33,487 nt of DNA from Promethearchaeia archaeon (GTDB taxonomy: Archaea; Asgardarchaeota; Lokiarchaeia; Sigyniarchaeales; SOKP01). Below the pieces are notes generated by a model. That model was not told the DNA's origin, did no database searches, and was given only the letters and a program-made list of their open reading frames with translations. Within the stretch, counting starts at the first letter, position 1, and every line of letters begins with the position of its first letter. The DNA lies in contig JAHQWI010000112.1 in the NCBI GenBank assembly GCA_029856085.1, positions 1 to 33,487 on the forward strand, in the 5' to 3' direction. Below, piece after piece: positions 15,637-31,575 of the stretch. A program made the translations under genes and the position numbers.

Positions 15637-17148
15637 TTGAAAGAATATGATAATATAGATTATAATGATGAAGAAAAAGTTTTAGAAACTGAATTGGAAT
15701 TGGATGAAAATGTTTTTGAACCTTTTGATGAAGAAGGATTAAATAATGTTCATTTTGAAAATTTTGAACCTAAAGATGAGTTAGAATACGAAGGCGCAAA
15801 AATCACAGTTGATTTCATACCTAGTGATGAAAATTCGATATTCCCTTTTTCAAAAAAGGGAGCAGATAGAATTCCAAAGCTAGATAATGAAAATCACACT
15901 CGCAATATTAAATTTAAAATTTATTCTGAAAAAGATGTCAGATATTGGATACAACAATATAAACATTATAAAAATTTTAAGAAGGTCCAAAATCATATAC
16001 GAGATGAAGGTAAAAAAGTACCGGCAATTTCAACGCTCAAAAATAGAATTAAGGAATTAATAGGGTCAGAGGAATACAAAGTACTTATTAAAAGATACAC
16101 ATTCGATGATGCAAACAAGATTGTATCTCAAGCTGGTATAAGTAAAACTGGAGTACCTGGAAAAATTTTATCAAATCCAAAAGAATTTAAAGGCATTAAA
16201 TCGAAATTATTATACCAGTGTGGAAAATGCAATTATTCATGGAAAACTAGTTTAGATGCGATTATACATAACCAAAGTTGGTGTCCAAAATGTGCAGCAA
16301 AAAGTCGAGCAGATAATCAAAGAGGTTCAGTAGAAGAACATCAAAATATTATAAAACTAAAAGGAGGTAAATTAATAGGAGTTATATATGAAGATCCTAA
16401 AGAAAAACTTTTCAATCAAATGACAAGATTCAAAATTGAATGTGAAGCAGGTCATAAGTTTGGTATTAAAGCTAGCAATCTAAAACAAGGAAAATGGTGT
16501 AGGGAATGTAGTTACAAAGTTATTGGTGAAAAAAATAGAGGTTCTTTCCAAGATATTCAAAGCCTTATTGAAAAGAGAGGCGGTCAGTGTCTTTCTAAAC
16601 CAGAAAATTACAAAAATCAACATCAAAAATTAAAAATTCAATGCAATAAAGACCACATATTTGAAAGAAGACCAACTAACTTAAAAAGAGGTGATTGGTG
16701 CCCTATTTGTTCTCAAGGAAAATTTGAGAAATTATGTCAAGGCTTTTTCGAAGAATTGTTTCAAGACAAATTTCCAAAAGAACGCCCTAATTGGCTAATT
16801 AACTCTCGGGGAAATCAAATGGAATTAGACGGATATAATAAAAGTCTAGGTTTAGCATTTGAAGCTCAAGGAGAACAACATTATCGCGCGGTAACGCACT
16901 TTAACCAGACCTTAAAGGACCTAGAACAAAGAATTGAAGATGATTTAACGAAATTAGAACTTTGTAAACAAAATGGTGTTAATTTAATTCAAATTCCCTA
17001 CTATGTGCATCCTGATAAGATACAACATTACATAACTGCTAAATATGAGCGATTGACAAATAAAAAAATGCCAGAAATCCCAAAAATAGACTATAATAAA
17101 TTTTATGATACTCAAGATGATCAAAAAAAGATGGATAATTATTTATAA
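15637..17148 (+). CDS. Treble-clef zinc-finger protein with Vsr-like endonuclease domain
   Basis: The 503-residue protein has an acidic N-terminus (1-65), a helical region (about 92-160), then three tandem treble-clef zinc units: C195/C198 with C216/C219; C269/H273 with C288/C291; C336/H340 with C355/C358. Each unit has the form strand, C-x-x-C or C-x3-H, basic helix, then W-C-x-x-C. The C-terminal region carries MELDGYNKSLGLAFEAQGEQHY (D398, E409, Q411) and LCKQNGVNLIQIPY, matching the Vsr-like branch of PD-(D/E)xK nucleases found with such zinc repeats in phage, giant-virus and bacterial proteins. It probably binds and nicks DNA; whether for repair, defence or mobility is open. Start is TTG at 15637 after a GCGAGGA site; a nine-codon ORF starting at 15611 ends exactly over this start. 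Confidence 0.8.
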   Translation: MKEYDNIDYNDEEKVLETELELDENVFEPFDEEGLNNVHFENFEPKDELEYEGAKITVDFIPSDENSIFPFSKKGADRIPKLDNENHTRNIKFKIYSEKDVRYWIQQYKHYKNFKKVQNHIRDEGKKVPAISTLKNRIKELIGSEEYKVLIKRYTFDDANKIVSQAGISKTGVPGKILSNPKEFKGIKSKLLYQCGKCNYSWKTSLDAIIHNQSWCPKCAAKSRADNQRGSVEEHQNIIKLKGGKLIGVIYEDPKEKLFNQMTRFKIECEAGHKFGIKASNLKQGKWCRECSYKVIGEKNRGSFQDIQSLIEKRGGQCLSKPENYKNQHQKLKIQCNKDHIFERRPTNLKRGDWCPICSQGKFEKLCQGFFEELFQDKFPKERPNWLINSRGNQMELDGYNKSLGLAFEAQGEQHYRAVTHFNQTLKDLEQRIEDDLTKLELCKQNGVNLIQIPYYVHPDKIQHYITAKYERLTNKKMPEIPKIDYNKFYDTQDDQKKMDNYL

Positions 17149-18686: not shown

Positions 18687-19265
18687 TCAAAACTCTAAAA
18701 ATCCGGGATCATCAAATATATCGTCTATTTTTCTTTCTTTTTTTATTTTTGTATCGCTTTCCGCGAACAATGATTCTTCATCCGTTCTTACTCCTCTCTC
18801 TAATTCATCCGTTTCAAGTTTCAAAAGCGCATCTTTTTCAAGGTTTTTATAGTGCTCACTTCTCATTTTCCAATCATTCACTTCATCCAAATTAATATCT
18901 TCTTCTTCTAATAATATTGCAGCTTTGGTTTTGCAAAGATCTGATAAAATTGAGTAAGAAAACGCAAGTTCTCCCCATTCATTCTCATTTTTTAATTTCT
19001 GATTTCGCTTCTCTAACCTTTGGATCTCTTGATCAGCATAAAAAACATCTATAAAATCTCCAAAGGCATCAACTGGTTCTGAAATAGAATTAACTAATAC
19101 CTCTTTTGTTAAACCACAATTTCCGCACTTTACGGTTGCAAAAGCACCTTTTTTCTTAATGTTAGTAACTTTAACACTCTTTTCACCGCAATCAGGGCAT
19201 GTAAATATTTTAGGTACTCTTTTAACCCTTTTCGGTGCAGCTTGTTTTCTTTTACGACGTCCCAT
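18687..19265 (-). CDS. Elf1-like transcription elongation factor with long C-terminal extension
   Basis: The first 80 residues match Elf1, a small zinc protein that rides on elongating RNA polymerase in eukaryotes and has archaeal homologues: basic tail MGRRKRKQAAPKRVKR, zinc ribbon with C23/C26 and C47/C50 (FTCPDC and VKCGNCGL), and the closing SISEPVDAFGDFIDVFY. Typical Elf1 proteins stop near residue 85; this one runs to 192. The extension is a charged helical region (QRLEKRNQKLKNENEWGELA, then a helix pair that could be TPR-like) ending in an acidic DDIFDDPGFLEF tail. Start is ATG at 19265, with a GGAG 13 bases upstream. It is transcribed toward the polyproline gene and away from the eight-gene cluster. 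Confidence 0.85.
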   Translation of the reverse strand: MGRRKRKQAAPKRVKRVPKIFTCPDCGEKSVKVTNIKKKGAFATVKCGNCGLTKEVLVNSISEPVDAFGDFIDVFYADQEIQRLEKRNQKLKNENEWGELAFSYSILSDLCKTKAAILLEEEDINLDEVNDWKMRSEHYKNLEKDALLKLETDELERGVRTDEESLFAESDTKIKKERKIDDIFDDPGFLEF

Positions 19266-19479: not shown

Positions 19480-20580
19480 ATGGAACATAAAAGATTAACG
19501 ATGGAAGATGATGCAAACTTAATAGATAACATCATGGACGATGTTGATATGAGATATATACTTTTATTCCTTTATGTAATTAGAAATGATTTATTTAAGA
19601 ATTTAGGTGATAAGAATCTCATAGAATCTTATGAAAGAATTCTAATCATAGATGATATTTATAAAAGTAATATCGTTAATTTTTGGGATGAAGAATTTAT
19701 TGAAATTTATATTGATTTAGGATTAATTAAAAATATTCGCAGTAATAGAGAGTTTGAACAAAAAGATGATGATTTCATAATAAAATTAGGAGAAGAAACG
19801 ATAACAATTGAACAAGATACTATTTCTGTTCCAGATGATACATTATTTTTAATAATTAATAAGAAATTTAAGTTTTTAACAAGAAGAAATTTTAATTTGG
19901 CTCTCACAAGATTAAAGGGAGTAAGATGTGAAAAAAGCAGTGTCATACATTCATTAATTTATGAAATTGATGAACATGATTATACATTAGCAGATGATTT
20001 ATATTATATTTTAGATCAATACGGTAATATCTATCAAGCAATCAAAATAGAAATAACCATAGAAGGTTTTTATCAAAGATTTAAGGAAATTGAGGAAAAA
20101 GTTCATGAGTTCATAAAAATTTTTGACCCAATTTTAAATACAAAACCTGTTTTAAAAAAAATCAATCAAGCAATGGAGGAAAATAAGGATATTATAAAGT
20201 ATCTAAAAGATGAGAACGTTGTGCTGCCTGATAAATTTAATTTTGATAATATTAATAAACAAGATACTTTATTTAAAGAATGGAACTCCAAATTAGTCTT
20301 TTTATTAAAAATTAGATATCAGATGGCTCAAATTGAAAAGAAAATCGTTGATTTAAAAAATAATTATTCGGGTAAGGAAAAAAAATTCAAATACCTTGAA
20401 TTTATTGAACAGGTTACTTATAATGAAGATAACACATTAGACTTTATACAGGAAACATTAGTAAACCTAAGAAAAGAGTTAATGAATATTAATGAAAAAG
20501 CTTTAAAGGTAACTAAGAAAGAAATAAAATTATTAAATTTAGATTATGAAAGATTAATAATAACTAGCAGTGAAGATTAA
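19480..20580 (+). CDS. Acidic helical protein of unknown family (first gene of the AAA+/SMC-like cluster)
   Basis: Not recognised. The 366-residue product opens with an acidic segment (MEDDANLIDNIMDDVD), then an alpha/beta region up to about 175 that includes FWDEEFIEIYIDLGLIKNI and the beta-rich EETITIEQDTISVPDD, followed by long helices from about 190 to the end with coiled-coil character (QMAQIEKKIVDLKNN, LVNLRKELMNINEKALKV). It has no nucleotide-binding motif, cysteine pair or membrane span. A helical N-terminal part joined to long helices would suit a kleisin-type bridging subunit if the cluster encodes an SMC-like complex, but there is no sequence evidence for that. The next gene starts two bases after its stop, so they are co-transcribed. 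ATG at 19480 follows AGGT; an ATG at residue 8 is the alternative. Confidence 0.75.
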   Translation: MEHKRLTMEDDANLIDNIMDDVDMRYILLFLYVIRNDLFKNLGDKNLIESYERILIIDDIYKSNIVNFWDEEFIEIYIDLGLIKNIRSNREFEQKDDDFIIKLGEETITIEQDTISVPDDTLFLIINKKFKFLTRRNFNLALTRLKGVRCEKSSVIHSLIYEIDEHDYTLADDLYYILDQYGNIYQAIKIEITIEGFYQRFKEIEEKVHEFIKIFDPILNTKPVLKKINQAMEENKDIIKYLKDENVVLPDKFNFDNINKQDTLFKEWNSKLVFLLKIRYQMAQIEKKIVDLKNNYSGKEKKFKYLEFIEQVTYNEDNTLDFIQETLVNLRKELMNINEKALKVTKKEIKLLNLDYERLIITSSED

Positions 20581-20582
20581 TT

Positions 20583-21548
20583 TTGAAGTGTCCTGCATGT
20601 AATATAGAAATGGAGTCATTAGTTGCTGGAATTTTTCAATGTCCTCAATGTAAAAAAATAGTTAAAGAAAAGGATAAAGAAATTGCACAAGATAAATCTA
20701 GAGTAGAAAAAGGTGAATTTCAAGAGGGGGAGTATTTTCATAAAAATGCAAGTTTAAATAAACAATATGAAATTTGTGAGAAAGGAATTACTTTAAGTAA
20801 AACAGAAAATCGATTATTTGCGGCTTTAATTTGTCATAGTGCCTATTTAAAAGAGGAAAAGTATGTTAGATTGTCATGGTGGAAAAATTTACAACATGCA
20901 GGCATGCTTAAAATTTATGATAAAGAAGTACTTAATAATATCATTATTTCTTTAGAAAAATTTGATGAATCTTTTGATGATATTTGGGGTTGGAGTGGAA
21001 GTTATGAAAAGCAAGAGCCTAAATCGGAAGAAGAACTAGATAAAGAAAAAAATTTGGAAATCATCAAATATAGAATTATCGAAAACAGAACGTGTCCAAA
21101 ATGTGCAAATAAAATGGATAAAAAGAAGTCCCATTATGAGTGTCAACATTGTGGGGAAATAGTAATATTAGAAGGATATAATCAACCAATTTTTAATGTG
21201 GCATCAGCAGACCTCGATTTACGCTTTCATGGAAATTTTCCAATAAACTTTTACTTGCCGGTAAGTGGGATAACAGTAAAATGGTTGATGGGTGAATGGA
21301 AAGCGTTAGCAGTTATCTATTCGAAAGACAATCCAAACAGAAAATGGTTCAGATTCTATTGGTGGGTACGAGATCTTAGTAATATATTAAAATATGGACA
21401 AAGGGAAATGGGGGAAGGCACTCAAATGGGTTGGAAAACTCAAAGAGGAGTATCATCCCCAAATATCTATGATAAGAAGTTATTAATACCTTTAATTAGC
21501 GCTTTAAAAAAAATATCAACAGAATTAAACTGGAATATAAGTAAATAA
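20583..21548 (+). CDS. Duplicated zinc-ribbon protein of unknown family
   Basis: The 321-residue protein seems to be two copies of one module. Each begins with a zinc ribbon (KCPACNIEMES then QCPQCKK at 2-24; TCPKCANKMDK then ECQHCGE at about 175-198), followed by a beta-rich domain with an aromatic pair (VRLSWWKNL in copy one, FRFYWWVRDL in copy two) and a closing helix announced by the same words (IYDKEVLNNIIISLEKF against IYDKKLLIPLISALKKI). I do not recognise the beta domain; strands plus WW and a final helix loosely recall PC4-like single-strand DNA-binding folds, with low confidence. Start is TTG at 20583, giving the N-terminal MKCPAC; it is two bases after the previous stop. Zinc ribbons suggest a nucleic-acid or complex-assembly role in the cluster. 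Confidence 0.8.
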   Translation: MKCPACNIEMESLVAGIFQCPQCKKIVKEKDKEIAQDKSRVEKGEFQEGEYFHKNASLNKQYEICEKGITLSKTENRLFAALICHSAYLKEEKYVRLSWWKNLQHAGMLKIYDKEVLNNIIISLEKFDESFDDIWGWSGSYEKQEPKSEEELDKEKNLEIIKYRIIENRTCPKCANKMDKKKSHYECQHCGEIVILEGYNQPIFNVASADLDLRFHGNFPINFYLPVSGITVKWLMGEWKALAVIYSKDNPNRKWFRFYWWVRDLSNILKYGQREMGEGTQMGWKTQRGVSSPNIYDKKLLIPLISALKKISTELNWNISK

Positions 21549-21575
21549 ATTTTTTTTAAAAACAGAGGAATATAT

Positions 21576-22715
21576 ATGGCAGAAGTCCAAGATACAACGT
21601 GGAAAATGTTATTGAACGATTTTGAAAATGGACTTGAAAAAGCAATAGAAGAGTTGCAGAAAAGAGATGTTGAAAATATTCCAGGAGCTAAAGAAGCACT
21701 TATTCAAAGATTAAACAATATGAAACTTCACTTTCCTAAAAATAATGGTGATATCTTCATAAAATCGATAAATGAAAAAATTCAAAATGCATTTTTTCCA
21801 AATACTACAAGTTTTTCTGAAGCATTCGAAAAAATATTGAAATCAAGGACTCATGAACAAGATTTCATTATAAATGAATTATTGAATGGATTTGTAACAT
21901 CAAAAGCAAAAGCAATTGCCTTAGGAACTCAAGGACCAATAATAGATAGAATGGTGGAAGCATTTAGTAAGAGAAACGATTTTCATATTGTTGATCACCA
22001 ATTTTTTGCTATGTTTGGAGATCCTAATAAACCTCGACATTATGTAAAAAAGCAACTTGAAGAATTAGTGAATATGTTTGGACTCGTTTCAAAAGAACTT
22101 TTAATTGAAAAGGATATAAGAAGGAGTGAGGAAAAAGTATATACATTTTATACTTTTCCAAGTGATATTATAAAAATACTTGAAGAAAAATATCTAATTA
22201 TTGATGCCGATTTGGGATATGCTTATGTTTCGGAAGATTTTGATAGAAATGTGTTTATCTGCATGTTTCTTGCTAATCTTGCCATTCATAGGGATGATAT
22301 CGACAAAATCGGGGGTTCTTTTACTATTAATGGTGTTTCTGCAATTTTTGCACTAATACTGTTGCTAAGTTTTATGCCAAAATTATCAGTAGATGAAACA
22401 AATCCTATTTTAAACGATCCCACCTTTAAAGCAGATAATATGAGTGTTATTCCAAAATCATGGATGATAAGACAAGTTTTGGAACCTCTGTTTGAACCTC
22501 TCATTAAAATTGTAGCATATAGAGTAGGCGGAGGATTGTGGTTCTCAAAAATTGTTGATTCTGAAATTAATAAAAAAATCCATAATCAAATAAAATTCCT
22601 CCTTAAAGATGTTAATAAATGGATCTTAGGGAATTTATGTAGAGTAGAAATACCAATTTTTGTTGAAATATCCAACATTTTTACTGAAATTTTAGTTGGA
22701 TATGATGAAGAATAA
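21576..22715 (+). CDS. Helical protein of unknown family (cluster gene 3)
   Basis: Not recognised. The 379-residue protein begins with amphipathic helices (WKMLLNDFENGLEKAIEELQ), contains a stretch near residues 150-205 (RHYVKKQLEELVNMFGLV, then KVYTFYTFPSDIIKILEEKY) that could be a winged helix, and a very hydrophobic helix around 255-272 (GVSAIFALILLLSFMP) long enough to be buried in a bundle or, less likely, a membrane. No catalytic motif is visible. ATG at 21576 is preceded by AGAGG at ideal distance. It lies between the duplicated zinc-ribbon gene and another large helical unknown, on the same strand with gaps of 27 and 12 bases. The segment after about residue 195 faintly resembles part of the next protein. 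Confidence 0.75.
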   Translation: MAEVQDTTWKMLLNDFENGLEKAIEELQKRDVENIPGAKEALIQRLNNMKLHFPKNNGDIFIKSINEKIQNAFFPNTTSFSEAFEKILKSRTHEQDFIINELLNGFVTSKAKAIALGTQGPIIDRMVEAFSKRNDFHIVDHQFFAMFGDPNKPRHYVKKQLEELVNMFGLVSKELLIEKDIRRSEEKVYTFYTFPSDIIKILEEKYLIIDADLGYAYVSEDFDRNVFICMFLANLAIHRDDIDKIGGSFTINGVSAIFALILLLSFMPKLSVDETNPILNDPTFKADNMSVIPKSWMIRQVLEPLFEPLIKIVAYRVGGGLWFSKIVDSEINKKIHNQIKFLLKDVNKWILGNLCRVEIPIFVEISNIFTEILVGYDEE

Positions 22716-22727
22716 GAGAAAGAAGAG

Positions 22728-24047
22728 TTGTATTATTTAAGAATGAGTTATAAAAAAAAATCAACAAGAACTATAAAACATGGAAGAAAAAGAGAAAAAT
22801 GGACTGATATTCTTCCTAGATATTTAACATTTATAACTCATATGCGCCCTATTTTAAGAGAAACCAGAAGAATAATTATTAATTTAGATCCTGATTTATT
22901 ACTAGATACAGAAATCTTAGATAAAATCCGTCAGGAGGAAGAGAAAAGAAATATACGTAAGGTTAGAGCACTCTCAGAATTTTCTGCGATGTATAGATCA
23001 AATATATATGAAATTATTAAAGATTTTATAATAAAATATCGAGATGAAATTCCAATAATAGATATTAAAGACTATATTATAGATTTTCTCCATGAATCTG
23101 TAGATGCTTTAAACGTTTTACGACATATCACTAATCCTGATGAACTCAATCTAGAAAATACTTATCTTTATCAATTAGTAAAATTTATTGAAGAAAGAAT
23201 AATGTCAAGAGGTTCAAATCTAAAAATTATATACGAGAAATTATTAGAAAATTCACCAAATCTTTATGAATGCCAACGCCATATATTGCAATCCCATACA
23301 TATTATAGAGAAAAATTAGAAAGTCCAGATAATTTTGAAATTCCAGTCATATCTCCAAAAGTATATCAAATTATCAATAATATAACATCTCTTTATAATC
23401 TAGACCCTAATTTTGGGGAATTTCCAGAAAAAGAGAATTATGAAATTCCAATGATTTTAAAAAACGATGTATTTTTGCCATACATTGATTCAATTGCGAA
23501 TGCTGAGGAAGAGGCAATAGAAAAAATGGCTGAACGCATAGGTTTGCGGTTAATTGATGGCATATTTCTAGCACCACAAGAAGATTTTGTTGAGATTCTA
23601 TTAGATAATAATTACCTACGTGAAAATAAGCAAACCGATGGAACTATAAGGTTATTGCCTCAATTTAGCAATGAAACCCTAATAACTTATTATTTAGCAT
23701 TTGCATCTCAAAGAAGAGGATTTCTATCAAAAGAATTAGTAAATTGGATTTCAATGAATTTTGCTTTTTTGATTTATATGGGTATTTTAAAATGGAAATT
23801 ATCTGACGAGAATATTTTTTATGCAATTTTTAAAGACTTACAAACAAATGAGAAGATTCTTCCTTATTTAATGAAACTTATATGTTTTCCTAATTATCTA
23901 GGTGTAGATAAGATGAAAATTCGAGATTCTATTCAATATCGGAAAGAAATTTTTAATTTTATAGGTTCTCAAATTGATAATCTTAAAGAATTTATTAATG
24001 AAATTGCTGTATTCTGTAAAAAGTTTGAAAGTAGAAAAAAAAAATAA
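22728..24047 (+). CDS. Large helical protein of unknown family (cluster gene 4)
   Basis: Not recognised. The 439-residue product has a very basic N-terminus (KKKSTRTIKHGRKREKW), suited to nucleic-acid contact, then is almost entirely alpha-helical. Around residues 285-315, IDGIFLAPQEDFVEILLDNNYLRE followed by DGTIRLLPQF looks like a winged-helix ending (helix, then a beta hairpin). The C-terminal third has hydrophobic helices (NWISMNFAFLIYMGILKWKL) and closes with a coiled helix and KKFESRKKK. No catalytic motif is visible. TTG at 22728 is the first start; ATG at residue 6 (22743) is a good alternative. It sits 12 bases after the previous gene and directly before the AAA+ ATPase gene. Confidence 0.75.
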   Translation: MYYLRMSYKKKSTRTIKHGRKREKWTDILPRYLTFITHMRPILRETRRIIINLDPDLLLDTEILDKIRQEEEKRNIRKVRALSEFSAMYRSNIYEIIKDFIIKYRDEIPIIDIKDYIIDFLHESVDALNVLRHITNPDELNLENTYLYQLVKFIEERIMSRGSNLKIIYEKLLENSPNLYECQRHILQSHTYYREKLESPDNFEIPVISPKVYQIINNITSLYNLDPNFGEFPEKENYEIPMILKNDVFLPYIDSIANAEEEAIEKMAERIGLRLIDGIFLAPQEDFVEILLDNNYLRENKQTDGTIRLLPQFSNETLITYYLAFASQRRGFLSKELVNWISMNFAFLIYMGILKWKLSDENIFYAIFKDLQTNEKILPYLMKLICFPNYLGVDKMKIRDSIQYRKEIFNFIGSQIDNLKEFINEIAVFCKKFESRKKK

Positions 24048-24070
24048 AATTTTAAGCGAGTTGAGAGAAA

Positions 24071-25180
24071 ATTAGTAAAAAAAATGATGAAAATGAAGTA
24101 AATATTACTTATACAGATGATATAATTAAAGAACGCCTTGGTAAATATGGTGCTGTTTATCTTTCAGTAGATATAAAAGAATCTGTAGAAGATATTTTGG
24201 GTAATGAAGTAAAAAAAGAATTACTAGATGATTTTTTCAAAGCCTTAATAAAATATGAGGAGTTTAAAGAACAATTAAAAGAAACAAAACTCACCCCCAA
24301 TTTAACGGTACTTCTATATGGCCCTCCTGGTACAGGTAAAACTTCCTTAACAAGAGGATTTGCAAAAAAATATGATATACCTATATGTATTGTAGAATCT
24401 GATAGGCTTGTATCACCATTGTTGGGGGATACAATAAAAAACATTAGAGGTGTTGTTGAACTGGCAGCAGATATTTCAAAAGAGAGAGGAGCATTTATCC
24501 TATTTTTTGATGAACTTGATGCTATAGGTTCAGAAAGGTCAAACATTCATGAGGTTGGAGAAATTAAAAGAGCTGTTATTTCTTTTCTACAAGTTATTGA
24601 CAGAATTAATTATGAAGGTGTCCCATTAGCAATCTTTGGTGCGACTAATCATCAACATCAGCTTGATTCTGCGATTTGGCGCCGTTTCACATTCCATTTT
24701 GAATTTGATTTCCCTAATTATCACCTACGCAAAAAAATTATTGAATCTTTCATCAATAAGATTAAAAATGCAAAAATAGGTGTTGATAACTCAATATTTT
24801 CGAATTTAAATAATGAATACAAAGAAATTCAGGCGATTGCTAAAGAATTACAGAATAAATTAGGACGTAAAATTTCTGAGTTTGATGATAATGTTTTATG
24901 GGATGAAATTATTAAAAAAAGTAAGATAGATGGGCTTTTAAAGTTAACATATGGATACTCTGGTTCTGATATTGAAAGAGGAACTAGAGTTGCATTATTT
25001 AAAGCCATTAGTACAGAACTGCTTACTTATGATATGTTTTTTAATTCATTACGACTAGTTGGCGGGACAGCTATCCACGTTGAAAGACAAGATGTTTTAA
25101 GTAGTACTAAAATCATTGCTAACAGAACTAAAATTAGCGAGGAAGGAAGAAAAAGCTTACCCAGTCCCCCAGAAATTTAA
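24071..25180 (+). CDS. AAA+ ATPase of the cluster (probable ATT start)
   Basis: This is a classical-type AAA ATPase: Walker A YGPPGTGKT, Walker B FILFFDELDAIGSE, sensor 1 GATN, a likely arginine finger WRRF, and a C-terminal lid with YGYSGSDIERGTRVAL. Numbered from the ATT start these lie at about 83-91, 142-152, 190-193, 203-206 and 294-309. Such ATPases remodel or move protein or nucleic-acid partners. The first conventional start is TTG at 24197, only about 40 residues before Walker A, but the frame is open back to 24065 and the upstream segment (ITYTDDIIKERLGKYGAVYL and so on) reads like protein. The only plausible earlier start is ATT at 24071, after GAGTTGAGAG; that gives 369 residues. 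A frameshift near the A8 run at 24077 is the alternative explanation. Confidence 0.85.
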   Translation: MSKKNDENEVNITYTDDIIKERLGKYGAVYLSVDIKESVEDILGNEVKKELLDDFFKALIKYEEFKEQLKETKLTPNLTVLLYGPPGTGKTSLTRGFAKKYDIPICIVESDRLVSPLLGDTIKNIRGVVELAADISKERGAFILFFDELDAIGSERSNIHEVGEIKRAVISFLQVIDRINYEGVPLAIFGATNHQHQLDSAIWRRFTFHFEFDFPNYHLRKKIIESFINKIKNAKIGVDNSIFSNLNNEYKEIQAIAKELQNKLGRKISEFDDNVLWDEIIKKSKIDGLLKLTYGYSGSDIERGTRVALFKAISTELLTYDMFFNSLRLVGGTAIHVERQDVLSSTKIIANRTKISEEGRKSLPSPPEI

Positions 25181-25217
25181 TAAAAAGAAAATCTAAATAA
25201 AATTCTTTTAATCAAAT

Positions 25218-26258
25218 ATGATAAGAAGCCAATTGTTCAATCTTGAAAAAATTAAGGACTTTACATCCTCAATAGATGTGCTTCAAGCAAAAATATATCA
25301 ATTAAATGAAGATTCTGTAAATATTAAAGCTTTCAAGCAGTCAGTAATTCACAATTTTACTAATAAAGATTTCCTTTCTCAAATTGAAGAAATAACAAAT
25401 TTGATGAGTGAAATGAAAAATATTTTAGAAAATATATCAAAGCATAATATAAACAGTTTCTTAAGTCTTCAAGAGAGTCTGATCAAAAAATATAAAGAAA
25501 AAAATCAAGAGAAATTAAAAAAACTAAAATTAAATCAAGGATTATTAAGAGAAATTGGATTATATTTGATTGAAAAAAGAGAAATTAATAAGACTCTACA
25601 TGAGATATCATATGTCCCTTCAATAGAAGTTGCTCAATGGTTAGAAATCTTAGATTCTTTAAAACAAAACTCACTATTTTTAAGAACTATAAAAAAAATT
25701 GAGCAATACTTTGAAAATTTAATTCAAGATAAACTCAAATTAGAATTAAGTAAATTACCTAAAGATGCTGATATATCGTTAATAAAAGACTTTGAAGCTG
25801 TTTTTCTCGAAGATCCAAATATCACTTTTACAGAATTTCTTCAAGATTTCGAAAGTAAATTAACCCAAAAAGAACTGGAGACAAAAAAAGAATTTATAGC
25901 AAAAGTAAAAAAGAGAGAAGAATTAGAAAAATTGAAAAAGAAACAAGAAGAACAAAAAGAAGCTTACAATGACTACTTAAAATTAACTGATAAAGCATTT
26001 GAGAGAAAAATTCGTAAAAAGGCTAGAGAGAAATTGAGCGATATAAGAACCACGGATAAAGAAACGAAAAAAATGGAAATTAGTGATGAAGTTTCGGAAA
26101 AAATCGAGAAATTTAAATCTAAATTAAACAAGAGTTTTGAGGAAAAATATTTAATTCAGAAAGATGATGAAAAAGATCCTCTTGATTTAATTAGGGAAAG
26201 GAAAATCAAAAAAGAAAAGGAATATAAGAAATATAAGGATCATTTTGAAAAAACCTAA
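25218..26258 (+). CDS. Coiled-coil protein of unknown family (cluster gene 6)
   Basis: Not recognised. The 346-residue product has an N-terminal helical region, a central globular-looking part (about 110-200, with EISYVPSIEVAQWLEILDSL), and from about 205 a long Lys/Glu-rich coiled coil (KKREELEKLKKKQEEQKEAY) that ends in a charged tail with KDPLDLIRERKIKKEKEY. There is no ATPase motif or cysteine pair. It lies between the AAA+ ATPase and the SMC-like gene, same strand, with gaps of 37 and 23 bases. By position and shape it could be an adaptor connecting the ATPase to the SMC-like subunit (inference). No ribosome-binding site precedes the ATG at 25218. Confidence 0.78.
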   Translation: MIRSQLFNLEKIKDFTSSIDVLQAKIYQLNEDSVNIKAFKQSVIHNFTNKDFLSQIEEITNLMSEMKNILENISKHNINSFLSLQESLIKKYKEKNQEKLKKLKLNQGLLREIGLYLIEKREINKTLHEISYVPSIEVAQWLEILDSLKQNSLFLRTIKKIEQYFENLIQDKLKLELSKLPKDADISLIKDFEAVFLEDPNITFTEFLQDFESKLTQKELETKKEFIAKVKKREELEKLKKKQEEQKEAYNDYLKLTDKAFERKIRKKAREKLSDIRTTDKETKKMEISDEVSEKIEKFKSKLNKSFEEKYLIQKDDEKDPLDLIRERKIKKEKEYKKYKDHFEKT

Positions 26259-26268
26259 ATCATAAATT

Positions 26269-26274
26269 AAAGGG
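26269..26274 (+). promoter_or_regulatory. Ribosome-binding site deciding an ATT start
   Basis: AAAGGG ends seven bases before ATT at 26282. No ATG, GTG or TTG occurs in this frame between the upstream stop (26246-26248) and ATG 26375, so this site supports translation from ATT. A weaker AAAGGGA near 26354 is 14 bases from the ATG at 26375 and is the competing choice. Confidence 0.5.
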
Positions 26275-26281
26275 CTTTAAG

Positions 26282-27895
26282 ATTTCAGCAAAAAATTTTA
26301 ATATTTTCATTGGTTCTAAAGAAATTTCAATTCAAGATCGATATACGGTAATAAAGGGAAGATTTAAAAAAAATATGGTGAATAGTCTTAAAAATGAAGT
26401 CTTCTCTGAAATTCTTGAGAATTTAGATCTAATTCCATTAAAAAAATTCATTAGAATCTATCTGGAACGATTAGATAACTCCAGTAATTTAGAAAGAGGT
26501 TTAGCTTTGATAAGCCTTCTTAATGAATTTCATGATCTTATGAAAAAAAACATTGAAATTGTCTCGCAGCACAGTGAAATTCTAGAATCCGTCATATCAC
26601 TTCTCAGATTTAATTCCCTTCTAAAAGAAAAAGAAAATCTTTTAAAAGAATTAGAAATAACGGAAGAATATAGAAAATCTAGTGATAATGCTGCAATTTC
26701 TGATTTGCTAAAAAAGTTAAACAAGTCTATAAATGATAATAAAAAGAAATTAAAATACCTTGAAGAAGACTATTCTCAACGAAAGAATCAAATTGACCAG
26801 ATTAATAAAACTATCAAAAATTATGAGTTAAAAGTTAAAGATTTAACAAAACAGAAAAAAGAATTTTTCAGTCAAATTAATAAAATAACTCGTGAGATGT
26901 CTGGAAGTCCTATTAAGGAAAAAGAAGAATCAAATCTATTTCCCGAAATTGATGATAGTTTAACGAATGCTCAAAAAATAAAAGCATTTCAGAAGAAAGC
27001 AAAAGATGTTCAAAGTGAAATTAATGAACTTAATCTGAAAATAAGTGAAACTAAATTAAAGTTCAATGAATTTAACCCACTTTATGAAATATATAAACGG
27101 GATTATGAAAAACTTAAAGAAATGATTAGAACGGATGAACAGAGAGTTAAAGACTTACAAGTTGAACTTAAAGATAATATCATGGAAAATAAAAATGGCT
27201 CTCATAAAAACTTTAATGGAATTGATTTGAAATTAGTAAGATCGAAACAAGATATCGAGGATGACATTAATAAAACTGACGAGGAATTGAAAATAATTTC
27301 AATTCCAAGGGATCTATATGATCTTCAGAATCCAGAAGATTTATCCAGAATAAAAAAGAAACTAAATGATAATTTTAATAACTTGAAAATTCATAAGAGT
27401 GAAATTAAAATCGAAAAAAATGAAGGACAAATTAGAGAAACTTTTGAATCTTTTCAAAGATTAGAGATTATCATTGATGAACTTGAATCTTTAATTAATA
27501 AATTCTTACAAGAGATTAATTTAAGATCAAATTTTAGCATTCATTTAAGTAATGATAATAAGAGTTTTTTTATAAAAATTGGATTTATTCGAAATAATCG
27601 AGAGAAAATTACTTTTAACGAGTTAACTACACCTGAGAAGATATTTTTTATTATCACATATTATATTTCAATGGAAATCCAAGTTAAAAATGACAATATA
27701 ATCTTTTCAAATTTGTTTATCCCAAGTATTTATAATAAAGCAGGTTCAATTTTCAGGACAATTAGAAAAATCTTACCTCTTTTTGAAAACGAGGAAGATC
27801 TTACTAATTTTAATTTAATTTTTATTCTTTCAAATTTAGAAATGAAAAAAGAAATAAAAAATTTAAAAATAATAACGATTCAAGCAAATGGTTGA
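26282..27895 (+). CDS. SMC-like coiled-coil protein with degenerate ATPase ends (probable ATT start)
   Basis: Read from ATT 26282 the protein has 537 residues. Its N-terminus has the pattern of an SMC/RecF head: a KNFNIFIGSKEISI strand-turn-strand, then TVIKGRFKKNMVN where SMC proteins have the Walker A loop GxNGSGKS; the catalytic Gly-Lys-Ser is absent. A long Lys/Glu coiled coil follows (about 100-430). The C-terminal end has NELTTPEKIFFIITYYIS in place of the LSGGEK signature, a hydrophobic strand NIIFSNLF where Walker B would end in Asp-Glu, and NLIFILSNLEMKK where the H-loop would be. So the ends look like two halves of an ABC head with no catalytic residues left. From the conventional ATG at 26375 (506 residues) the N-terminal half of this match is lost. 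The next gene overlaps by four bases (TTGA). Confidence 0.75.
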   Translation: MSAKNFNIFIGSKEISIQDRYTVIKGRFKKNMVNSLKNEVFSEILENLDLIPLKKFIRIYLERLDNSSNLERGLALISLLNEFHDLMKKNIEIVSQHSEILESVISLLRFNSLLKEKENLLKELEITEEYRKSSDNAAISDLLKKLNKSINDNKKKLKYLEEDYSQRKNQIDQINKTIKNYELKVKDLTKQKKEFFSQINKITREMSGSPIKEKEESNLFPEIDDSLTNAQKIKAFQKKAKDVQSEINELNLKISETKLKFNEFNPLYEIYKRDYEKLKEMIRTDEQRVKDLQVELKDNIMENKNGSHKNFNGIDLKLVRSKQDIEDDINKTDEELKIISIPRDLYDLQNPEDLSRIKKKLNDNFNNLKIHKSEIKIEKNEGQIRETFESFQRLEIIIDELESLINKFLQEINLRSNFSIHLSNDNKSFFIKIGFIRNNREKITFNELTTPEKIFFIITYYISMEIQVKNDNIIFSNLFIPSIYNKAGSIFRTIRKILPLFENEEDLTNFNLIFILSNLEMKKEIKNLKIITIQANG

Positions 27896-28398
27896 TACTA
27901 ATAATGGAAATAAAAGAAATTGAAGAAGTTATAAAAAATATTACCAAAATCATTTTAACTAATCCTCAAAAGATGATTAGAGAAGAAGATCTTAAGAATT
28001 TAAGCAAAGATTTAAATTTTAAACAAGTTATGAGTGAAGTCTATGTGAATTTAAAAAATATTGGTTTTGAACTAATTAAAACTAAATTTCTTGGACAAAC
28101 TTTTTATATTTTAACATCCGAGGGTAAAGATGATGATGTTACACCCTCTCAATATGGTACTTTAGCGTTAATAGTAGCTTTAAGCAAAGAAGTTGATGAG
28201 AATATAAAAATTGAAGATTTGAAAGAAATATTTACTGAAATATGGGATACTGATATCCAATTTCTAATCGAGAATGATTATCTAAGAAAATTCGAGGAGT
28301 TAGGAATAATAAAAGTGGCACCCTTAGGAAAAGCCATCATGAAAAACATCATTGTAGATATACAGCTGAAAAACTTGTTGAATTTGTTTAAAGAATAA
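27892..28398 (+). CDS. Nse3/MAGE-like (KITE) tandem winged-helix protein
   Basis: The 168-residue protein has two winged-helix-like units. The first (about 20-75) runs from a helix EEDLKNLSKDL through FKQVMSEVYVNLKNIGFELI to the hairpin FLGQTFYILTSEG; the second (about 84-160) from YGTLALIVALSKEVDENIKI through a helix ending LIENDYLRK to the wing IIKVAPLGKAI. This order and several positions match the MAGE/Nse3 family, a KITE subunit that binds DNA and the kleisin of Smc5/6; ScpB and MukE share the fold. Similarity is judged by eye. Start is TTG at 27892, overlapping the stop of the SMC-like gene (TTGA), which suggests coupled translation; ATG at 27904 is the alternative. It is the last gene of the cluster. 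Confidence 0.78.
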   Translation: MILIMEIKEIEEVIKNITKIILTNPQKMIREEDLKNLSKDLNFKQVMSEVYVNLKNIGFELIKTKFLGQTFYILTSEGKDDDVTPSQYGTLALIVALSKEVDENIKIEDLKEIFTEIWDTDIQFLIENDYLRKFEELGIIKVAPLGKAIMKNIIVDIQLKNLLNLFKE

Positions 28399-28421: not shown

Positions 28422-28838
28422 TTAATCTTCTAAATCCATTTTAAATTGTTCATAAATTTTTCTAACTCTATCTGCTGAAGGACCTTCTCCTCGTACTCCT
28501 TTCTCATCTACAAGTATTTTCCCACTTAATATTGATATAATATTTTGATCTTCAATATAATCAACATGACCTTTTGTGAATATTGTGGCAATGCGTTCGC
28601 TAAGTGCAACCATAGGGAAAGGTTCTTCTTCCAAACTCACGAAGTTGTAAAAGGTATTTCTTATAAACAGCTTTGGGAATAACTTGCTTTTTTCATTTTT
28701 CGCATTAACAAGAATAAGGTTTGAATCCTCTGAAATTCCCTTTAATTTTCCCACAAAAAACTTATCCTTATCAATGTATACCTTAACGATTTTATCAATT
28801 AAAGTTCCTAACTCAGTATTATATTGCCTTATTGACAT
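28422..28838 (-). CDS. Sm-like archaeal protein with C-terminal extension (SmAP3-like)
   Basis: Sm/LSm proteins form rings that bind U-rich RNA. Residues 10-47 fit the Sm1 motif (LIDKIVKVYIDKDKFFVGKL, then KGISEDSNLILVNA), and the following strands (KLFIRNTFYNFVSL) take the place of Sm2, although the usual Gly in the second motif is not obvious. The chain goes on to 138 residues with a C-terminal segment (about 85-138) as in the archaeal SmAP3 type, ending in a helix DRVRKIYEQFKMDLED. Start is ATG at 28838, with AAGGA upstream. It converges on the last gene of the AAA+/SMC-like cluster with a 23-base gap and is probably a separate unit. Confidence 0.72.
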   Translation of the reverse strand: MSIRQYNTELGTLIDKIVKVYIDKDKFFVGKLKGISEDSNLILVNAKNEKSKLFPKLFIRNTFYNFVSLEEEPFPMVALSERIATIFTKGHVDYIEDQNIISILSGKILVDEKGVRGEGPSADRVRKIYEQFKMDLED

Positions 28839-29067: not shown

Positions 29068-31575
29068 TTGAAATCTATGATAGAAGATAAATCATGCAAA
29101 TATTGCGGGAGCAAATTTCCATCAGAGCTTCTGAACACCACAAATATCGGTGAATCGGTTCTCTGTGAAAATTGTGGAACAGAAGTTATCAAAGAAAGGG
29201 ATGAAAATGCTGAAGTTGATAATAAAATTGATGATAATAATCAAACGAACGGTTTTTTCCGACGTATTTATGAAAGCCTTCGAAGTAAAAAGAGTCCAAT
29301 AGAAAGGGTATTTAAAGACTCTGATTTCCCCGTAAGGTTTAAAGATAATTTCAAAATTGTAGTTTCTCGACTTGTTTATCCCCACATACGATCATTAGAG
29401 TGTGAATCGACTCAAGATATAGAAGGATTGGAATTAAACCAAGAGATTCTCGATGATCTCTACGAAAAGATTAACCCAATATTGAACCAGCGAGTTAAAG
29501 ATAAGTTTTTAATAAATTTGCATAGCATGCGTGTGAAAGAGTTCGATAAGTGGCTAAAATTATTACAAAAAAAAATTAAAGTAAATAATAGGTTTTGCCA
29601 AGATTTTGTCATTTATTTGCGTTGGCTGATAAGGGAAGTATTTATCATAATTACTGAGCTTTGGGATGAACCTGAACTCCCTAGATTTGAACAAGTTATA
29701 CGCGATGATTTAAGATCATTTGAATTAAATCTCAGTAGTTTGCCTATAAGAAATCAGGGGGATAAAACAAAAAATTGTTCCAAATTAATAGATTTATATC
29801 AAGTTAATTGTATACAAGATGGAAAAAATAAAGAATTTCACCATGATGGGCATCTTGAATTCCCAAAACCTTTAGATTCTTTTAAAGAGTACGAGTTTAA
29901 TAAAGAGAGAGAAAGCATCATAGACATTATTAAAGAAATTAATGAATTGATTGAGAAGAATGATATTAGTATTAGGATGTTTAACGCATTAACAGGACGT
30001 TATCTATCAAGTTCAAATAGAGTGGAATTGACGGCATTTGAAGCGGCAACTGGAATGCTTTGCAACCTTATAAGAACAACTAGCCTTCCGCGGTATATCA
30101 AAGATAAAAAAGATCTTCAAAAAATGATATTGGGGGGTTTCTATTTAAGGAAAGGGGATAAAGGGTTTGCCGAACTTGCTAACCAGACCAATGTGCGATA
30201 TGGTGGAATAATCTATATTATTAAACCTGTTAAACAATTTAGTGTATTTCCAAACATTCTCACATTAATCTATATTGGAGTCACTTGGAAAACACTATTA
30301 GTAAGGTTTACTGAGCATGTAGAAGATGCTGTTGATTCTTACATGAAAGATTCTGATTGGTCTAGTCGTTTGATCGAGCGATTAATTCAAACGGCAATGG
30401 AAGATTTTTTTAAGCTCCAATATCCATATATTTCAGGAATTTCACCATTAAAACATTTTATTGATTCTGAAATATCAGGAAAAGAGGAATGGGAAAAAAA
30501 GTATATTATAAAAAAGATCGCTGAAACATTATATCACACATATTTTGATATGGAGGTTATTGAAGTACATAGAAATTATGAGACCGCATTACCTCGTGAA
30601 TCTTGGTATATTAAAAATTTCACTCATTCCATAAAGGGGAAGTTCCTTAAGGGGACTTTATGCCCAAATGGACTTAATATGATCACATCTCCAAGAACTT
30701 CTAGGCATAAAACCTTACCATTATATGACATTATTTTTTTAATCGCTTTGGGTTGGACTGGACCAAGGATAAATGACATGATTCAAAAACACTATGGTAT
30801 AGATATCAATTACAGGATTATTTATAGGATCCTCAATAAATTTTGGGGCAATTGGGATAACGTGCTATATTTATTCTTTAAACCTGTCTTACAAATGTTA
30901 TTAGAAAATAGAGATTATGATTGGGGGGATATTGCAAAGGCTATTCACCGAAATCCCTCTTATAGGATAAAAAAGAATTTTAGAAAATGGTTTTTTGGTT
31001 TAAGCATAACCCAAATAAGGTTAGTTATGGATAGAGACGATTTTCGCTGGGATAATTTACAGGAAATCGCCCAAGAACTAAAAGCATTACTGAGCGATGA
31101 GAATTTTATCAAGGGGGTTTCAATAGAAAAATGGAATGAGTGGTTTATATCTGATATAGGTATGGGAACAATTGCTAAGGAATTGGGATATAAAAATGTG
31201 AAATCATTTCGTAGTGCTTGGGTGAAACAGGGGAGAGTTTCAATCTTTCAGTTGAAATTTGGGAAGTCATATATTTTAACGGTTAAAAAATATAGGAAAA
31301 AGAAAGTAATCGAACTTTTAACGGATGAAGATTTTGTAAAGACTCTTTTGGGTAGCAAACTTTATTGGATTTATGTAAAAGTGTTTAGGTTTATGGAATA
31401 CCAAGATTATGCAGTAGCTACACCTTCACAGGGATTTCGTAATTGTTATAATTTTTTCGATAAATTGTTTGAGGATGATGGTTTGACAGCCAAGGAACTA
31501 GAAAATCTTACTCCTTTTGATTGTATGGATGATCTAAGAATTTATAAGATTATAAATAAAATTTTAGACTCTTAG
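29068..31575 (+). CDS. Large zinc-ribbon/GIY-YIG nuclease with helix-turn-helix-like C-terminus
   Basis: The 835-residue protein starts with a zinc ribbon (C10/C13 and C33/C36), then an acidic linker and a long helical region. Residues about 379-541 are a GIY-YIG endonuclease domain: GGIIYIIKP, LIYIGVTWKTLLVRFTEHVE with R413 and H417, and the catalytic Glu E511 in PRESWYIKNF, closing with CPNGLNMITS. The last 280 residues hold repeated helix-turn-helix-like units (LGWTGPRINDMIQKHYGIDI; ISDIGMGTIAKELGYKNVKS) of the kind homing and modification-type nucleases use to recognise DNA. All GIY-YIG key residues are present, so it should cut DNA. Its purpose (mobility, defence, repair) is unknown; no target gene or repeat is seen. 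Start is TTG at 29068 or ATG at residue 4. Its stop overlaps the end of the HypB gene. Confidence 0.85.
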   Translation: MKSMIEDKSCKYCGSKFPSELLNTTNIGESVLCENCGTEVIKERDENAEVDNKIDDNNQTNGFFRRIYESLRSKKSPIERVFKDSDFPVRFKDNFKIVVSRLVYPHIRSLECESTQDIEGLELNQEILDDLYEKINPILNQRVKDKFLINLHSMRVKEFDKWLKLLQKKIKVNNRFCQDFVIYLRWLIREVFIIITELWDEPELPRFEQVIRDDLRSFELNLSSLPIRNQGDKTKNCSKLIDLYQVNCIQDGKNKEFHHDGHLEFPKPLDSFKEYEFNKERESIIDIIKEINELIEKNDISIRMFNALTGRYLSSSNRVELTAFEAATGMLCNLIRTTSLPRYIKDKKDLQKMILGGFYLRKGDKGFAELANQTNVRYGGIIYIIKPVKQFSVFPNILTLIYIGVTWKTLLVRFTEHVEDAVDSYMKDSDWSSRLIERLIQTAMEDFFKLQYPYISGISPLKHFIDSEISGKEEWEKKYIIKKIAETLYHTYFDMEVIEVHRNYETALPRESWYIKNFTHSIKGKFLKGTLCPNGLNMITSPRTSRHKTLPLYDIIFLIALGWTGPRINDMIQKHYGIDINYRIIYRILNKFWGNWDNVLYLFFKPVLQMLLENRDYDWGDIAKAIHRNPSYRIKKNFRKWFFGLSITQIRLVMDRDDFRWDNLQEIAQELKALLSDENFIKGVSIEKWNEWFISDIGMGTIAKELGYKNVKSFRSAWVKQGRVSIFQLKFGKSYILTVKKYRKKKVIELLTDEDFVKTLLGSKLYWIYVKVFRFMEYQDYAVATPSQGFRNCYNFFDKLFEDDGLTAKELENLTPFDCMDDLRIYKIINKILDS

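Follow-up and report, generated by a model that had tools for sequence, protein, structure and literature searches.

A lokiarchaeal gene cluster that combines an SMC-type protein lacking ATPase motifs with a KITE subunit and an intact AAA+ ATPase

How might a machine built on an SMC-type (structural maintenance of chromosomes) protein be driven when the SMC head has lost its catalytic motifs and an intact AAA+ ATPase is encoded in the same gene cluster? The question is raised by eight open reading frames (ORFs), g1–g8, at 19480–28398 on the plus strand of a 33,487-nucleotide stretch from a Promethearchaeia archaeon (hereafter the window: GenBank assembly GCA_029856085.1, contig JAHQWI010000112.1, positions 1 to 33,487; GTDB lineage Archaea; Asgardarchaeota; Lokiarchaeia; Sigyniarchaeales; SOKP01). 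All eight run in the same direction, as an initial annotation of the window had proposed. To our knowledge, all described SMC complexes run on their own ABC heads. We give about even odds to the reading that these genes specify a derived SMC-KITE machine whose SMC head is dead and whose AAA+ subunit is live, where ‘dead’ and ‘live’ refer to loss or retention of motifs in the sequence rather than to measured activity. The genes are as follows:

g1, 19480–20580, plus strand: 366 aa, helical, Cys...His pair conserved; homologue also in type II clusters and genome G112 (ORF, alignment, synteny in 24 full loci)
g2, 20583–21548, plus strand: 321 aa, zinc-ribbon protein, internally duplicated (Pfam Zn_ribbon_6; hhalign of N half versus C half)
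g3, 21576–22715, plus strand: 379 aa, helical with a winged-helix-like part; probable distant paralogue of g4 (AlphaFold2, profile match)
g4, 22728–24047, plus strand: 439 aa, among the best conserved of the eight (no Pfam or PDB match; 79–86% identity in the genus and near relatives)
g5, 24071–25180, plus strand: AAA+ ATPase, Walker A and B intact; probable ATT start at 24071, first TTG at 24197 (Pfam AAA, homologue motifs)
g6, 25218–26258, plus strand: 346 aa, coiled-coil, fast-evolving; candidate kleisin by position only (ORF, synteny)
g7, 26282–27895, plus strand: SMC-like coiled-coil protein, head motifs lost, no hinge; probable ATT start at 26282, first ATG at 26375 (AlphaFold2, Foldseek, head profile)
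g8, 27892–28398, plus strand: 168 aa, KITE (tandem winged-helix) subunit (hhalign versus KITEs of Asgard AAA-SMC operons)

We modelled g7 and g3 with AlphaFold2, each as a single chain. The g7 model (predicted local distance difference test, pLDDT, 82.8; predicted template modelling score, pTM, 0.57) opens with N-terminal strands, is helical in the middle and closes with a strand-helix-strand lobe at the C terminus, and together with the Foldseek matches it points to an SMC-type head formed by the N- and C-terminal ends around a coiled coil. Foldseek returned 58 matches at E ≤ 0.001 (best E 6.4e-8); among the 50 listed, nearly all are structures named SMC, Rad50, JetC, MukB or Lamassu, and one, the integrative model 9a6c, is not named as SMC-type. 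The model has no strand between residues 64 and 424, that is, no SMC hinge. Walker A is found in none of the 34 g7 homologues (0/34), the signature column, which in SMCs reads LSGGQ/E, reads LTTPEK, and the Walker B column reads IIFSNLF. The fold matches and the missing Walker A bear out the initial description of g7 as having SMC-head-like ends without catalytic residues: judged by its motifs and predicted fold, g7 is an SMC-type protein cut down to a coiled coil that lacks a hinge and whose head is catalytically dead.

In sequence profiles, the relation of g7 to SMCs emerges only when the head alone is compared, and with AAA-linked SMCs. The C-terminal part of the g7 head matches the SMC heads of AAA-linked operons from families f1 and f8 taken together at 79.8% (E 1.4e-5, score 41, shuffled maximum 16), whereas against canonical Asgard SMC heads it scores 14.1, below the shuffled maximum of 19.5. 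A profile of whole g7 gave only coiled-coil noise against PDB sequences, and a weak Pfam match to Laminin_II, below the cut-off, was disregarded. For g8 the comparison is more direct: against the KITE set of Asgard SMC operons, hhalign gave 94.1% (E 1.2e-7, 139 columns, score 54.5, shuffled maximum 16), which agrees with the earlier proposal of a tandem winged-helix protein; by this profile match, g8 is a KITE subunit of the kind found in SMC-kleisin-KITE complexes. The expectation of a classical AAA+ ATPase also held, in that g5 carries a classical AAA domain (Pfam PF00004, 3e-25) with Walker A and Walker B motifs kept in 37/37 homologues.

We mapped fetched loci with iterated profiles. The genomes compared are mostly metagenome-assembled, and family numbers (f1, f2 and so on) are labels of the analysis tool; named relatives place the genomes in Candidatus Lokiarchaeota/Lokiarchaeia, and the sister family includes Prometheoarchaeum-type isolates. 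All eight genes occur in the same order and on one strand in 24 loci from two lokiarchaeal families, more than expected by chance. An Lsm-family gene that follows g8 in the window (28422–28838, minus strand; Lsm_C 5e-11) adjoins in 23 of these loci and the gene upstream of g1 (18687–19265, minus strand) in 22. The other mapped loci are mostly contig-end fragments keeping the same gene order; the exceptions that are not fragments comprise one type II replacement (L084, see below), two loci with inserted genes and one truncated copy. The Asgard neighbourhood survey thus sustains the view that the cluster behaves as one unit, and by this conserved synteny the eight-gene block is a vertically inherited unit. 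Of the convergent neighbours that had been described, the downstream Lsm gene is indeed convergent, whereas the upstream gene is divergent.

Searches with g8 and g4 found them in 34/58 and 39/58 genomes, respectively, and a g3 profile picked up 62 of the 228 genomes of the phylum searched with it, a single one of them outside f1 and f2. Within f1 the cluster is near-universal and strongly conserved; an apparent loss in G004 is unusable, with masked or unknown bases beside the site. The best conserved genes are g3, g4 and g5 (about 77–87% within the genus) and the fast-evolving ones g6 and g7 (46–57%). Searches for relatives of g1, g3 and g4 outside Asgard archaea, and for g3 copies in viruses, phages and plasmids, found none. 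Weak g3 matches in G129 and G196 are short and marginal, and the G196 neighbourhood is ordinary. In G112, from another Asgard family, a distant g3-g1 homologue pair (L147) adjoins an E2-E1 fusion and a JAB peptidase gene. Insertions lying exactly between g5 and g6 were seen in two genomes: G005 (L108:6855-13639) has genes for an LmuB-like ATPase, a PAPS-reductase/BrxP-like protein, a C5 methylase and a nicking endonuclease, and G012 (L107:3445-17020) has DpdB, TGT-like and HerA-like genes.

A second form of the cluster, type II, was found in two genomes of the sister family f2, G042 (a single-contig genome) and G050. Homologues of g1, g3, g4 and g5 stand in the same order as in the window (type I), with a g2 homologue at the g1 end that is partial in G050 (contig end) and full-length and in the other orientation in G042. 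The place of g6–g8 is taken by an SMC of 1057–1071 aa, a protein of 322–325 aa and a kleisin, which has 313 aa in G042 (v313) and is cut by the contig end in G050; in G042 a 176 aa protein follows the kleisin. The motifs of the type II SMC are intact (GKNGSGKS in G042, GKNGTGKS in G050; SSGQKQ; DEFDRGLDP), and its nearest PDB relatives are Smc5 (5e-9) and Smc6 (3.5e-8). The kleisin matches Nse4_C at 0.0013, below the family cut-off, and the Asgard kleisin set at 92.5% (E 4.9e-7). Profiles of the 176 aa (v176) and 322–325 aa (v322) proteins did not match the KITEs of the Asgard set. A C-terminal remnant of g8 is kept on the Lsm side of the G042 cassette, and we read this locus as one where a type II cassette replaced the type I genes at the same site.

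How do these clusters relate to other SMC operons of the phylum? In a sample of loci found by searching with related SMCs, several Asgard families carry operons of an AAA protein, an SMC, a kleisin (about 211–256 aa) and a KITE (about 156–195 aa). Such operons are present in many Asgard genomes, and most of the copies sampled pair an AAA protein devoid of its P-loop with an SMC that retains one. The P-loop is kept in both the AAA and the SMC in f22 and f27, while in f8 (8 loci), f10 (1) and f1 (8) the SMC keeps its P-loop and the AAA-like protein lacks one; in f1 the latter is AAA-derived by profile alone (97.5%, E 6.5e-12). The f1 loci include contig C81 (L206) of the window’s own genome, with an SMC that reads GPNWSGKT, LSGGQ and FDEAG. 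By its motifs, the window is the mirror image of the C81-type operons, with a live AAA and a dead SMC as against a dead AAA and a live SMC. We infer a wider Asgard theme in which one of the two ATPases of AAA-SMC-kleisin-KITE operons has repeatedly decayed. The f22 operons (L194, L195, L196; also L162) adjoin genes for ubiquitin-type E2, E1, RWD-RING and M48-RING proteins, and in L199 and L202 (f25, f26) SMC-kleisin-KITE genes are followed by a DNA primase large subunit and an E1-like gene. One of these loci, contig C173 of G047 (L162), was rejected as a member of its genome’s own order: although that genome is filed in f4, the SMC is up to 73% identical to f22 SMCs, and the contig is probably contamination or a transfer; what is said here of f22 operons is based on f22 genomes.

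In a tree of AAA domains, g5 groups with its type II counterpart (92/90), and the f22 and f8 AAA proteins are not joined to this pair; f27 lies beside them on a very long branch. A single origin of all SMC-linked AAA proteins is unsupported by this tree. Shared descent with the AAA-linked operons is thus supported by sequence comparison for g7 and g8 and not for the AAA partner.

The remaining proteins are less readily classified. In g1 (alignment A7), C150 and H157 are invariant. For g2, Pfam Zn_ribbon_6 matched at 1.9e-5 in two stretches and the N and C halves match each other at 98.2% (E 6e-14), which confirms, at the level of profiles, the internally duplicated zinc-ribbon protein of the initial annotation. 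The g3 model (pLDDT 80.5) is helical with a winged-helix-like part; it had no match among PDB folds at E ≤ 0.001, with some weak matches to TFIIE subunits. The g3 profile matches the g4-type protein of G050 at 1.6e-7 and the direct g3–g4 comparison is weak (E 0.007), consistent with g3 and g4 being probable distant paralogues. No match for g4 was found in Pfam or PDB, weak Pfam matches of g6 (Filo_VP24) and g3 (DUF2120) below the cut-offs were disregarded, and no nuclease domain was recognised in g1–g8. Kleisin profiles matched none of g1–g4, g6 and g8, and g6 matched neither kleisin nor KITE profiles, so that g6 is a candidate kleisin by position only.

The compactness of the cluster depends on where g5 and g7 begin. 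With ATG, GTG and TTG starts only, they begin at 24197 and 26375, leaving gaps of 149 bases (g4–g5) and 116 bases (g6–g7). Both frames continue upstream of these codons, and because homologues conserve sequence there, we assign ATT starts to the two genes, most likely at 24071 and 26282. The ATT at 24071 aligns with the ATG of a g5 homologue. The likely g7 start is an Ile codon (ATT, ATC or ATA) in 22/31 homologues and ATG in one; in several no ATG, GTG or TTG lies close by, and in many the codon is shortly preceded by a Shine-Dalgarno-like stretch that contains GTG. With the ATT starts the intergenic gaps are 2, 27, 12, 23, 37 and 23 bases and g7 overlaps g8; the initially reported spacing of 2–37 bases or overlaps holds on these terms. 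Elsewhere in the window, positions 15637–17148 encode a protein of 503 aa in which Cys pairs recur and the C-terminal part is endonuclease-like, and 29068–31575 one of 835 aa that has a zinc ribbon, matches GIY-YIG weakly and is present in only three mapped loci. The latter may be mobile, because a homologue occupies the expected place of g1 in G003 (L091:15143, minus strand).

Among described systems, Smc5/6 with its Nse4 kleisin and Nse1/Nse3 KITEs offers one likeness, an SMC-type head (g7) plus a KITE (g8), and type II resembles it further in an SMC nearest Smc5/Smc6 and an Nse4-like kleisin. The window cluster differs in that g7 lacks ATPase motifs and hinge, that no kleisin is recognised in type I, and that it includes an AAA+ ATPase and four further proteins. 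The Asgard AAA-SMC-kleisin-KITE operons (e.g. L194–L196, L203, L206) share an AAA protein beside an SMC-type protein with a KITE, and their SMC heads and KITEs match the g7 head and g8; however, their SMC is live and the AAA dead in f1, f8 and f10, the reverse of the window, which moreover adds g1–g4 and has no recognised kleisin. Wadjet (JetABCD) and MukBEF/MksBEFG have a KITE subunit, and the best fold matches of g7 include JetC and MukB heads, but the window lacks the JetD nuclease and a MukF-type kleisin and has a dead ATPase and an extra AAA+; a PADLOC scan for Wadjet gave weak coiled-coil matches of g7 to JetC and none to JetD. While g5 scores 5.6e-59 against the IetA model of IetAS (AAA ATPase plus subtilase), the score is partly generic, since a proteasome-type AAA of the same genome reaches 2.9e-41, and no match to IetS or peptidase S8 was found in g1–g8 and the two downstream genes scanned; on these grounds we reject IetAS membership. 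Finally, the archaea-specific SMC-related proteins ClsN and Sph resemble g7 in having an SMC-type head with a coiled coil, but are described as possessing Walker A and Walker B and, for the most part, a zinc hook (PMC9389158), whereas g7 has no Walker A; the same source, citing Yoshinaga and Inagaki 2021, reports archaeal Smc5/6-related SMCs as already known. In the searchable literature, which excludes preprints and most subscription journals, we came across no account of AAA-linked SMC operons and none of an SMC-KITE cluster whose SMC is dead. The new architecture suggested at the outset stands insofar as no described system matches; given the type II form with its true SMC, the cluster is better described as a variant derived from SMC-kleisin-KITE machines than as a wholly separate architecture.

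If the cluster is a derived SMC-KITE machine, it probably acts on DNA, to judge from sequence and models. In such a machine g7 and g8, perhaps with g6 as kleisin, would form a DNA clamp; the opening, closing or loading step normally driven by ATP at the SMC heads would be driven by the g5 AAA+ ring, and g1–g4 would link the ring to the clamp and the DNA substrate. Besides the conserved gene order, the fold and missing motifs of g7, the KITE match of g8 and the intact motifs of g5, three comparisons speak for this: type II keeps the g1–g5 homologues with an intact Smc5/6-like SMC and Nse4-like kleisin at the g6–g8 position, the g7 head resembles AAA-linked rather than canonical Asgard SMC heads, and mirror-image operons with dead AAA and live SMC occur in the same genome and in f8 and f10. 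Several points weigh against it. No kleisin is identified in the type I cluster; searching the g7 profile directly against the type II SMC yielded no match, g7 is only weakly similar to SMCs outside the head, and the pTM of its model is 0.57. Since g5 and the AAA proteins of other SMC operons do not form one group in the AAA tree, the two AAA-SMC pairings may be independent, and the proposal that g5 powers a g7/g8 complex is drawn from sequence comparison and predicted folds. That ATP hydrolysis moved from the SMC heads to the partner AAA+ ring, as one end of a reciprocal series of ATPase loss in Asgard AAA-SMC operons, is possible, and we advance it tentatively. The initial annotation had suggested such a transfer; the proposed placing of hydrolysis on the AAA+ is supported, by comparison, through the opposite loss seen in this genome’s own AAA-linked SMC operon.

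The same neighbourhoods can be read differently. Should g5 be a remodeller or assembly factor in its own right, encoded in the operon without powering the pseudo-SMC, g7–g8 would act as a passive clamp, structural or DNA-bridging; type II, f22 and f27 combine an AAA+ with a live SMC, so that the AAA+ has its own role beside a working SMC, and the AAA tree gives no sign of shared origin, but the reciprocal ATPase loss in AAA-linked SMC operons suggests functional coupling, and we regard this arrangement as unlikely. It is more doubtful still that g7 is a regulatory partner of the live C81 SMC and g5 its missing AAA, the two loci making one machine: while this genome does hold the complementary pair (dead AAA with live SMC in C81, live AAA with dead SMC in the window), g7 has no hinge, the window cluster has its own KITE and type II clusters have their own full SMC. 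A cytoskeletal or membrane scaffold of coiled coils remodelled by the AAA+ ATPase, in place of a DNA machine, appears very improbable. Several subunits are coiled-coil and AAA+ proteins such as Vps4 remodel filaments, but the SMC-head fold of g7, the KITE g8 and the exchange of g6–g8 for a true SMC and kleisin module in type II all weigh against it; the membrane remodelling mentioned in the initial annotation finds no support.

The role of the derived SMC-KITE machine would most likely be genome upkeep or surveillance of unusual or foreign DNA, much as for Smc5/6. Genome upkeep is favoured on comparative grounds because the cluster is near-universal, vertically inherited and slowly evolving in f1. 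In a defence system of the Wadjet/Lamassu kind, a pseudo-SMC/KITE clamp would sense foreign DNA and the AAA+ ring would remodel DNA or recruit an effector. SMC-based immunity is known (PMC10586767), and the gene neighbourhoods favour defence in three places: in G042 a type II cassette took the place of type I at one site, with the g8 remnant left behind, in G005 and G012 genes for DNA modification and restriction interrupt the cluster between g5 and g6, and the distant g3-g1 pair of G112 lies beside E1-E2 and JAB genes. Yet the conservation in f1 is unlike that of patchy defence systems, g1–g8 have no recognised nuclease and copies of g3 in viruses, phages or plasmids were not found; we consider a dedicated defence system rather improbable, and the initial suggestion of DNA defence retains the indirect backing of genomic context only. 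In eukaryotes, Smc5/6 not only resolves recombination intermediates but also limits the replication of viruses (PMC9458440), and upkeep and defence therefore need not exclude each other.

If ATP hydrolysis has indeed passed from the SMC heads to an AAA+ ring, the cluster would be the first SMC-type DNA machine of this sort, and it would suggest that Asgard relatives of Smc5/6 worked with an AAA+ partner since abandoned by eukaryotes. The conserved cluster, its SMC head dead and its AAA+ live, would form together with sister operons in the reverse state a natural experiment on the purpose of the heads and on the steps that require ATP. The cluster lies in the archaeal phylum closest to eukaryotes, and since type II has both an Smc5/6-like SMC and an Nse4-like kleisin, and ubiquitin-type E1, E2 and RING genes adjoin the f22 operons, the origin of Smc5/6 would become more directly testable.

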